Source of the DNA: Leishmania martiniquensis
Lineage: Eukaryota; Euglenozoa; Kinetoplastea; Trypanosomatida; Trypanosomatidae
Length of the DNA: 64,000 nucleotides
NCBI RefSeq assembly: GCF_017916325.1
Contig: NC_090168.1
Location: 1,445,143-1,509,142, forward strand
Reading direction: 5' to 3'
Under the pieces are notes generated by a model, which was not told the DNA's origin, ran no database searches, and saw only the letters and a list, made by a program, of their open reading frames with translations. A program made the position numbers and the translations under genes. Positions 5,091 to 37,441 of this stretch are shown piece by piece. Position 1 is the stretch's first letter. Each line of letters begins with the position of its first letter.

Positions 5091-8000
5091 ATGGCAACGG
5101 CGACGCCTCCGCGGAGTCGAGGTACAGAGCCGCCGCTGCCACACAGCAGTGGCGAGGCGTTGCCGCGGCTGGCGAGGTCGGTGACTGAGGCATCGGAGGT
5201 CTCCACAAATGGGCAATATTTTAACCTGCCGAGCACGCCGGGCAACGAAGAGAGCGATGGCCGCTCGAGCAGCGCTATTAGCACCTGCGGTGGCGACAAA
5301 GACGGTGAGCTGCGGTGGCGTGCGTCTCGCAGGGGCATGCGGCAAATGTCCGGGGATAACGATGTGGGGACGCGCGACGAGGACCCTGCGTACTCAGCAG
5401 CGGTTTCCATTGTTTCTTCCTCTTACTTCAGCGCACACATGCTGGCAGAGGCTGCCCATGAGCGTGCGACGGAGCAGCGGCTTGCAGAGAATCTCTATAG
5501 TATGTGCATGTTTCGCTCGCCCGGTAGCCAAGCGAGTGAGCGAACTGGCGACACGGCTGAGCCGCTTGCTATGGGGTGCAGTGCAGGGGGAGCTGCTCCG
5601 TCATCCTTGAGTCAACCGGTAACCAGAATGACACAGAGCAGTACATCGACTGTATTCGCCTCTTCGCGGGGAATGCCGTCAGGCGATATCGATGATCCCT
5701 ATCACGTTCTCTCTATGCCGACGGCCGGGACCATGTACCTCATATCGCACGCCAACAGCGACGAAGAGCGCGGCAGCGGCACTGCGCGGGCATCACAGCA
5801 GGATTTGTACTGCCTGAACGCCTCAGTCTTGAAGCTTTCCACAGGCGTGTGTGCCAATCCCTCTGCACATCAGCAGCGAGACAGCATCTCTCTTCGTGGA
5901 GGGTGTGCCTCCGCCACGTCCTGTGATCGAGTGGTTGCACCGGTGAGCTGGGAGTACGGTGAGTGGTTCCTGACGCCTCACTCAGCGACGAGGGAGGCAT
6001 TCAGCGTTCACCCCGCCGGTGCGCCGGCCCCTGCTACAGGCGACGAGCGCCACTCTGCTCCGTTGATGAGCTCTGCTGCTGCTGATGTCACCACAGAGTT
6101 GATGTGCCAGCCACTGTCATCCCGCAGGTTCTCCTTGCCCCTCACTGTATCCACCACGGCGCTGGCGAGGGAGCGTCCGACTGGCATAGACACTTCCGCG
6201 AAGCTGCGCGGTGCCCTTTGTGCGGTAGCCGCGCAGGTGCCCTTCGGTGCAGCTGATGGCGATGCTCCTCTGGAGGTGGAGGAGCAGTCGCGAGTGGCAG
6301 TGCAGGAGAACGTTGTCGCCTCAGCGTCTACGCCACTGTGCGATTCCGCCGCCACGGAAGTGTGCGTCGCCGTGGAAGGTGTAGGAGCTGGAACGGTGAG
6401 CCCAGTAAAGAGTGCCGTGTATGACGGCATCGCTGCCAACAATGCCGCCCATGAGCCAAGCGAAGCCGAGGAAGACCCTTCTGCCTGTGGTTCTGTGAAG
6501 CTAATCGTTAGGCGACGCTGCCGCCGGGCCTCGCACGGCGGCGGGCCGGCTCATGAGGCACTACCACTTCCAGCAGCAGACGTTACTCTCCAGCAGCCAC
6601 CATCGCGCCCTTCTCCAGGCGACAGCGCCACGTCTTCAGTTACCCGGGGAACGCGCATGACTCTACGTAGCATTTCGAGTGGCCTCCAACGCGGGTGCCA
6701 GTCCGCCTTCACAGATACTGCATGTGTAGGCAGGTCTGCCGTGCCCCTGGCATCCGATATCACCCCTCTTCCGGCCCCCAGCGCTCCCCCTGCTTGCAGA
6801 GGTGCCGATGCACCGCCGCATGCATCCTCTCCTGCCCCCTTTGTTCCTTCCACGTCCATGCTGCCGTTGCTGCCGCCCGAGGCGGTAGCGACCGTCCGGC
6901 AGCCTCGTTTGACCGTATGCGGCTCAGTTCTGTCGGAGGTCCCTCGCGCACCCGCCGGCCACGACGGGAGGCTGACGCCCCTCCTAGCGCCTGATCACGC
7001 TGCCAAGGGGTGCCCGTCGGACGTGTTGCATCGAGCCGAAAACCACAGCATAGCAACCACGGTGGCTGGTGCAACTTCGAGCAGCACTAGCACGTTCTCA
7101 GAAGACCTCACCTCAGGCTCCTCTCCTATGCGTGTCTGCGCACAATCCATGGACCTGCAGTTGCCGCCTATAGGCGCCGATCCGCGCCGCAGCTTCGACG
7201 ATGATACCTTACCGCTTCCCCGGGGCTGGGGCGAGAAGGCCACCGATCCGTCGGGGACACTACGCGCGGCTTGTGAGGCGAACTCGTCTGCTGTCAGCCT
7301 GCAGGAGAGGCCCGAAGTGCACATCACAACCCCGCGCTGCACTCCCGCGCCTCTCACTGTTACGGCTTCAGAGACGCTGGCTGCCGCCACAATGGGTGCT
7401 CTCGCCTTTTCGCGTGGCCTCTCTGGGGGCGGAGCTATCGTCCACCCCACTGCAGCTGTCTCTCGCCGGCTTCTCCAAGCAAACGACCGTGCCCAGCAGT
7501 ATGTGCCAAAGGAATGCCCAATGGGCTCCTGTGGCGCGGGATCACCCTCAGGGCGAGCCATGCTTATTCCCATAGCCCTCTCAAAATCGCCAGGCATCTC
7601 AAAGAATGCGCCGCAGTTGCGCGAGGAGGTGGACAGCGGCGAGGCCGCTGGGGCCCGGGAGAGCGGGCGGGGTGCACTCAGCTCCACTCGCTCCCCTTCT
7701 GGCCGGCGACGGCGCGTGGGGTTCAAGGAGACGATGGAGGTGGTGCTGCCCGACTCGAAGTCTCTCCGGGTGTCGGTTCCATCGTGGCTCGAGTTCCGAA
7801 ACCCGACCATGCGCGAGCAGGGGAAGGAAATGATGCCATCAACCGAGGAGGTATACACCCACCTCGTGTCGCGCTCGAACGCGCTGTGCGCACTTGTTGT
7901 TGTCGACGAGGATGCAGTGCGGAAGCCATGTCTCGTCGTCAGTGGACTCAGTGTGCGTGTGTACGAGGAGGACAAGGAGGTTACGCTGGCGAGCAGCAGA

Positions 8001-37100: not shown

Positions 37101-37441
37101 GTCCAAGCTGCACATGCTTCATGCTGAACATCGCCGACGACGACGCCATTCGTAAAGCAGGTGAGGGAGAGGAGTCGATGCAGCAGGGACTTGAGCGTGT
37201 GCTCTTGCTTCTACACAGTATGTCTACTCTCCAGAACTACGACCTGCGCAGTGGCTCTGTGAAGCGCTTCATCAAGTACGTTGAGCTATCTCACACCAAT
37301 GCGCAGGGTCGGCTAGAGAAGGAAGGGGATGAGGTGCAGCGCCGCAAGATAGAGCGCTACCTCCGTGAGCAGGAACGACTTCTGCAAGATGCCTACAGTA
37401 TGCTGCAGGAGGCGAACATTAGCTACGGCGAGGGGCTCTAA
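34181..37441 (+). CDS. Pseudokinesin 4: Gly-rich, coiled-coil protein with degenerate kinesin-like domain
   Basis: This encodes 1086 residues from the first ATG; the frame extends to a TTG at 34091. Residues about 30-71 are Gly/Tyr-rich. About 395-545 are a long, highly charged Arg/Glu helix (single alpha-helix or coiled coil), flanked by basic serine motifs (RSISRLPSM, RPISRPASR). The C-terminal domain (about 728-1075) is the best kinesin match of the window: MVKTLVLVEEV, NFNYQSSVIHDVCEAVCGGY, GYNAAVLAVDAPNTAS (790-805) in place of the P-loop, MGYLHQDKAKDLL in place of EIYNExxxDLL, SPIYGPRLTNLSYDAI plus FEEVLTTTLSRA in place of the 'GLxexxVxsxeev' strand and helix, DIYLSSLVVATAGAD in place of LVDLAGSE, and LGGPSCTCFML (from 972). 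GKT, SSRSH and DLAGSE are gone. Expected to bind partners rather than hydrolyse ATP; this is inferred. Confidence 0.9.
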   Translation: MFQQQQLAAYGADGAAKVKGRGLGIGGDAGLMNGNFCGGAYQSGYGAGGYGGAAAFGGGSMYGHPCVGPGMGSVHEEIIVTKLFSSRRDLDCLASARDFSRRFDSNWGSCCGVGADGYGGSLYGANCAAGGSFMNSSGKPGTSSTMDCGKGATGIGPDGDNPSTATKLAREEVVAAQEELAVERDRTSQSLRPGGETNAGASQRRPCAETPGSGTFRNGRVRPAPSPSAAEANAKRDKGHSASGGAANTGPKPSGPQGPQATETNPPSLGTDDSGAILLPAAKEHASADAKAASAQEAKPCTAEPIDDIPLLAEDVRQNPAASTGAVEAKQAPAATKISTEALEGAKAVGRAPEASATVESTADGKGRQSRPRSRQVARSISRLPSMNVVEFPEAEEVKDEMVKDGLRDPLKEAREAATRAEQRRERESAARAARDERQRQRKQLDEAQRQREEEAQRRRQRKEDELREQKEKLAKMDEERKRERDAAHAARERQREEEKRRLEERRRAEEEKEAARAAALIAERHRELEEQEKEAQEKTARSSSRQRSRRPISRPASRLRGAIPEQPPDVEAGQMKDTLADEELGKPVHAHSEGHHSHPVEGPRAAHASSKAAPPVEERSTCGRPADVKRAPQTLTAARMEHVTRSRRSQPSLPQQEAARRPEPQKKPPAVAGVVAKAQPVHRATPASPSSNPMQQPQGLKNVRLSQPKEDKCAHSAGKSSAPRSANMVKTLVLVEEVRGSNHAVTITNNSISYHGQTIKVTEVKTRPEDNFNYQSSVIHDVCEAVCGGYNAAVLAVDAPNTASRFDSPVWSILNRIVRTLLQENSNEAGELRSDFELTCAMGYLHQDKAKDLLATAEAEAPFTKIGVNPSPIYGPRLTNLSYDAITDSAAFEEVLTTTLSRAAEDATMQSLREGVLAAFVLIMQTRETDGKPDIYLSSLVVATAGADTFPYQSAISHTRNEYATVFHLVLGGPSCTCFMLNIADDDAIRKAGEGEESMQQGLERVLLLLHSMSTLQNYDLRSGSVKRFIKYVELSHTNAQGRLEKEGDEVQRRKIERYLREQERLLQDAYSMLQEANISYGEGL

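Follow-up and report, generated by a model that had tools for sequence, protein, structure and literature searches.

Genes of the cluster and their domains

The window analysed here is a stretch of 64,000 nucleotides from Leishmania martiniquensis (contig C33, positions 1445143-1509142, of a 32.3-Mb genome in 41 contigs; C33 and C17, which appears below, are contig numbers and not chromosome names). It carries four genes, all on the + strand and each opening with an ATG at the first coordinate given, whose products contain what we call the pseudokinesin domain, a kinesin-like domain that lacks the motifs of the ATP site. P0001 (gene G08, 5091..9761) has a long, disordered N-terminus followed by a divergent domain with long insertions, which a family profile match places at approximately residues 1085-1500 (8295..9542). 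P0002 (G09, 13574..17194) begins with a Gly/Met/Gln-rich region, continues with two pseudokinesin domains in tandem, and ends in a Ser/Arg/Lys-rich tail. The first of its domains lies at 14738..15757 (domain E-value 2.5e-85) and the second at 15857..16909 (8.6e-110), both scored with a profile that includes their own rows. P0003 (G10, 28030..31353) again has a disordered N-terminus and a divergent domain, matched by the family profile in two stretches (residues 683-1101, 30076..31332). P0004 (G11, 34181..37441) has a Gly-rich start, a charged, coiled-coil-like middle, and a C-terminal pseudokinesin domain (36353..37438).

Pairwise BLASTP connects P0002 with P0004 (1e-18), P0003 with P0004 (4e-7), P0001 with P0002 (4e-5), and P0002 with P0003 (1e-3), while a direct comparison of P0001 with P0003 gives no significant match (0.81). 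Both P0002 domains individually match P0004. A 50-row family profile, built from 20 domains of this genome and 30 from other species and excluding P0001, P0003, and the first domain of P0014 (as does its 33-row core), recovers P0003 with a probability of 99.1% (E-value 7e-19) and P0001 with 98.3% (1.6e-14). In protein searches, which scored the 7,989-7,994 candidates sharing most words, P0002 matches a protein of L. orientalis at 86% and P0001 matches those of L. enriettii and two other Leishmania at 81-82%; orthologues of P0001 occur in other Leishmania and in Novymonas. The domains are better conserved than the remainder of each protein, which fits selection on the domains.

The cluster extends upstream of the window. 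Single-domain genome searches and a scan of 164 kb identify 11 frames on the + strand within some 112 kb (C33:1370901-1482580); seven of them lie upstream, at C33:1370901-1442650 (L018-L025). A twelfth frame, at C17:496403-499027 (L027), has a Gly/Met/Gln-rich start resembling that of P0002, and a further weak match occurs at C29:465702 (E-value 0.42). By profile, these 12 genes encode 22 domains: 3, 3, 4, 3, 1, 1, and 1 in the upstream genes, one each in P0001, P0003, P0004, and the C17 gene, and two in P0002. There may be more than 12 genes, as the genome searches score the best candidates only. The four-domain array agrees with one in Novymonas: each of the four domains of Novymonas P0016 has the same-place domain of the four-domain member here as its best match (61-73% identity). 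Two of the three domains of T. congolense P0017 match the same places in a three-domain member at about 30%; the first does not.

The initial annotation, made from the letters of the window, described four of five consecutive genes as ending in a domain with the order of kinesin elements, preceded by completely different N-termini. The positions, the relatedness, and an element order beyond chance are borne out, and the N-termini do vary among members (disordered, Gly/Met/Gln-rich, or Gly-rich and coiled-coil-like). However, the region given as one domain in P0002 (residues 390-1090) comprises two, and a family of four genes is far too small.

Descent from the kinesin motor domain

Aligned with hhalign to seven kinesins of the same genome, the pooled family scores 85.5, as compared with 19.2 for the best of 60 column shuffles and 14.7, 17.1, and 15.2 for myosin, Ras, and protein kinase, respectively. 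The kinesin set derives from eight fetched loci; the pattern search gave a domain in all of these but L003. In a profile search, kinesins occupy 60 of 60 rows among the matches listed. The AlphaFold2 (AF2) model of the P0004 domain (predicted local distance difference test score, pLDDT, 88.8; predicted template modelling score, pTM, 0.88) has the kinesin fold, as judged from the model and from the best 50 matches of a structure search. The model covers the P0004 domain only, and the assignments of P0001 and P0003 come from profile matches; the structure search does not by itself exclude septins, other folds, or myosins, the last being addressed by profile. Axoneme entries appear among the structure matches (9ijj_c and 7n61_0X in two VIA rows, 9ijj_c in one Foldseek row), with the chain identity not named in the output.

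Several results weigh against a kinesin assignment. The AF2 model of P0001, built from 11 sequences, is poor (pLDDT 37, pTM 0.33). Searched singly against PDB, P0002 and P0004 return no kinesin, only 1 and 11 weak unrelated matches, respectively. Pfam at E-values up to 10 gives zero kinesin matches for the window proteins. Against the kinesin profile P0003 alone reaches 1.3% and P0001 alone 3.8%, profiles made only from the orthologues of the first or the second P0002 domain reach 2.3% and 0.7%, and two of the seven single kinesins stay under 7% against the family. Since the single-domain P0002 profiles fall short and two single kinesins score low, the kinesin signal emerges only when the family is pooled. 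Searched with the Pfam kinesin model, the genome as a whole returns 63 matches, none of them inside the cluster; P0004 has a weak, coiled-coil-like match to Borrelia_P83 (E-value 0.012, below its cut-off).

Taken together, the pooled profiles show descent of the pseudokinesin domain from the kinesin motor domain. Neither of the two checks proposed with the initial annotation, profile matching and structure prediction, told against it, the family matching kinesins and not myosin, Ras, or protein kinase, and the P0004 domain having the kinesin fold. With the motor domains of KIF1A, KIF13B, and KIF15 (PF00225) the pseudokinesin domain has in common the fold and the order of elements, including a GxN strand ahead of the P-loop, DLL past the EIYN place, GG..T before the final strand, and a neck-like segment; its SPxFGP loop corresponds to HPLLGP of KIF1A. 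It differs in lacking the Walker A, switch I, and switch II motifs, in a shortened microtubule-binding segment, and in falling below Pfam detection. The nearest kinesin subfamily differs by method, with KIF1A and KIF13B leading in PDB and L001, a kinesin of this genome with a C-terminal-type motor, leading in hhalign.

Loss of the ATP site and of most of the microtubule grip

The motifs GQTGSGKT, SSRSH, and DLAGSE are absent from all four window proteins, from all 12 members, and from all 50 aligned domains, just as had been noticed for the window genes, whereas all seven kinesins of the same genome have SSRSH and DLAGSE along with a Walker A pattern. A vestige can be added to that observation: at the P-loop place, the P0001 group retains G-N-x-x-G-R in 11/11 proteins (GNGSGRS in P0001, 8415..8435, + strand), with Arg replacing the Walker A Lys. 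P0003 carries GYSASVLSLDSKGLSK at the Walker A site. Of the four window proteins, only P0002 matches a relaxed Walker A pattern, and it does so in its tail, beyond both domains (Met-numbered residue 1147). This match and another in G05 (residue 542), also outside the domains, are dismissed as chance.

The other lost feature concerns microtubules. In kinesins, the main face for binding microtubules, made up of L11, alpha4, L12, and alpha5, lies between switch II and the GG that precedes the last strand. From the switch II strand (SSL) to that GG, the pseudokinesin domains have 32-39 residues in 50 of 50 cases. The same stretch measures 64, 64, 64, 84, 65, and 67 residues in six of the seven kinesins (register from hhalign; the seventh falls outside the length pattern). 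At this place the P0004 model has two short helices, 227-233 and 239-244. A stretch of about half the kinesin length indicates that L11-alpha4-L12, the main grip on microtubules, is mostly gone. The net charge of the 20 domains of this genome averages -4.1 (-4 to +8 in kinesin windows, which have different bounds). What is conserved in 27 rows (E, GxN, DLL, SPxFGP, DV..SS, GG..T, N, RxGxV..F, and a terminal DP...P..Y) falls on positions of the fold.

Correspondence to the ARND family

A family of this description was published in PNAS in July 2026 as the Adhesion Related NTPase-like Domain (ARND) family (PMC13416946), and so the family is already known. Its proteins, found by TurboID with KIAP3, have inactive kinesin-like domains and belong to the flagellar adhesion plaque; the top Foldseek match of the domain is invariably a kinesin, and Walker A is not conserved (PMC13416946). 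Iterative BLASTP at 1e-5 gave 11 genes in L. mexicana; the passages covered mention by name LmxM.32.2890, 2900, 2905, 2910, 2930, 2940, 2960, 2970, 2980, and 3010, and LmxM.17.1030 (PMC13416946). Seven members localise strongly to the adhered flagellum, those of T. congolense lie on the contact side, and cells deleted for KIAP4 (LmxM.32.2940) are severely impaired both in adhesion and in colonisation of the sand fly stomodeal valve (PMC13416946).

The likeness to the present cluster extends from domain content (inactive kinesin-like domains, coiled coil, disorder, a lost Walker A, and T. congolense members) to genomic layout, in that an array on chromosome 32 plus one gene on chromosome 17 of L. 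mexicana parallels the C33 array plus the C17 gene here. An NTPase-like domain matching kinesins, the feature that defines the published family, is found in P0004 by structure and in P0001, P0002, and P0003 by family profile. Followed in gene order, P0001 would be LmxM.32.2970, P0002 would be 2980, and P0004 would be 3010, and localisation to the adhered flagellum is published for LmxM.32.2980 and LmxM.32.3010 (PMC13416946). The two accounts differ in that the paper counts 11 genes where this genome has at least 12, and in that its p-loop NTPase-like label comes from Foldseek, with a comparison to septins, whereas kinesin descent is read here from sequence profiles. That descent, the shortened L11-alpha4-L12, and the P0001 P-loop remnant were not encountered in the main-text portions of PMC13416946 covered here, and in the portions of earlier literature covered, the word pseudokinesin matched only PMC5076506. 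Beyond the paper, this analysis contributes kinesin ancestry at the level of sequence, the shortening of the grip, the P-loop vestige, a census of the domains, and a twelfth gene as a probable member.

The probable addition is P0003. Its best BLASTP match among the other members has an E-value of 2e-4; each of the remaining 11 has a match at 3e-7 or better (database size set at 5.2 million residues, an assumed Leishmania proteome). A BLASTP search at 1e-5 would therefore miss P0003 and find 11, which is the published count. LmxM.32.3000, at the place of P0003 by order, is absent from the main text of PMC13416946, in which the sole match to LmxM.32.30 is 3010. P0003 is thus probably an ARND member missing from the published list, and a probable overlooked entry for the parts list of the plaque.

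Proposed function in the adhesion plaque

We consider it probable (roughly 0.83) that the window genes are ARND members in which degenerate kinesin motor domains, from one to four per protein, follow disordered or coiled-coil-like N-termini and serve as rigid binding bricks in the plaque. Because no ATP cycle and little microtubule grip are left, the domain would act as a rigid protein-protein binding brick, and several domains per chain together with varied N-termini could cross-link partners into the plaque beneath the flagellar membrane. Some points tell against so uniform a role. Published gene numbers are matched to the genes of the window by order only, some ARND members are weak or undetected at the adhered flagellum, the T. 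brucei member Tb927.2.5610 is mitochondrial, and ARND members are not upregulated in adhered Crithidia fasciculata (PMC13416946). Given such weak, mitochondrial, and non-upregulated members, some of the family, P0001 and P0003 included, may have a role other than adhesion.

The non-motor role suggested by the initial annotation agrees, as a scaffold, with the published family, but the example that it gave, a dead head still gripping microtubules, fares badly. Retention of the kinesin fold, the place of SPxFGP (at kinesin L8) among the best conserved stretches, and the existence of kinesins that are structural parts of the axoneme (9ijj and 7n61 among the matches listed) would all suit such a scaffold. 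Set against them are the roughly halved switch II-to-GG stretch in 50/50 domains, the negative mean net charge with the caveat on bounds given above, the location of published members in the plaque, and the observation that an attached flagellum remains on the substrate once cell-body microtubules are depolymerised (PMC13416946, figure legend), so that we regard this reading as very unlikely. Non-catalytic kinesin heads do have a precedent in yeast Vik1 and Cik1, which lack ATPase activity and work with Kar3 on microtubules (PMC4338441), and conservation of the neck-like RSGSVxRF motif and of helices would be in keeping with a similar foothold in a heterodimer with an active kinesin. That foothold contacts the microtubule, however, whereas ARND domains, up to four per chain, have mostly lost the main grip; arrays of three or four heads are ill-suited to a one-to-one heterodimer, and no kinesin partner is reported in the portions of PMC13416946 covered. 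A partner role of this kind is hardly to be expected.

Filament formation in the manner of septins, a speculation made for KIAP4, is unlikely, if less at odds with the data. The authors liken the domain layout to that of septins (PMC13416946), the plaque is a cytoskeletal structure, and a kinesin-derived domain could form filaments. The kinesin ancestry, with the 60 profile rows described above, argues against a septin origin, although no direct septin comparison was made; such filaments are compatible with our reading in function, not in ancestry. The reading as plaque bricks may also be extended, tentatively and as something less likely than not, to a whole motor domain turned into building material. 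A single ancestral kinesin head would have lost both ATP site and microtubule grip ahead of the expansion of the family, and its descendants, some 22 in each genome and as many as four to a chain, would form through their former motor surfaces a microtubule-independent lattice that makes up the trypanosomatid adhesion plaque. A parallel for such reuse is found in the inactive calpain-like proteins KIAP2 and KIAP3 (PMC13416946), also an expanded dead-enzyme family reused in cytoskeleton and plaque, albeit with an unrelated fold (calpain peptidase).

Leishmania and its relatives use the adhesion plaque to hold on to the insect vector. Kinesin descent gives the most expanded family of the plaque a concrete ancestor in place of an NTPase-like label and points to surfaces to test; with the ATP site and most of the grip lost, motility should be absent and microtubule binding weak at best.

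Other features of the window

Between P0002 and P0003 lies P0006 (23990..24991, + strand, ATG at 23990), a low-complexity protein of 333 amino acids in which no pseudokinesin domain was found by Pfam or among the open reading frames matched by the family profile. Its C-terminus has repeated Arg-x-x-Ser motifs that, by eye, resemble stretches of P0003. In the orthologues of P0004 (P0019-P0030, alignment A1), the N-terminal third holds a conserved stretch, VTKLFSSRRDLDRLAS...DFSRRFDSNWGS, amid low complexity, a possible candidate for a partner-binding motif. Downstream of the cluster are two long frames, 43811-46264 (817 amino acids) and 55405-58494 (1029 amino acids), with zero Pfam matches at E-values up to 10. 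A further long frame, 59309-63802, matches the ABC transporter family PF00005 (E-value 2.3e-9) and has a Walker A motif.
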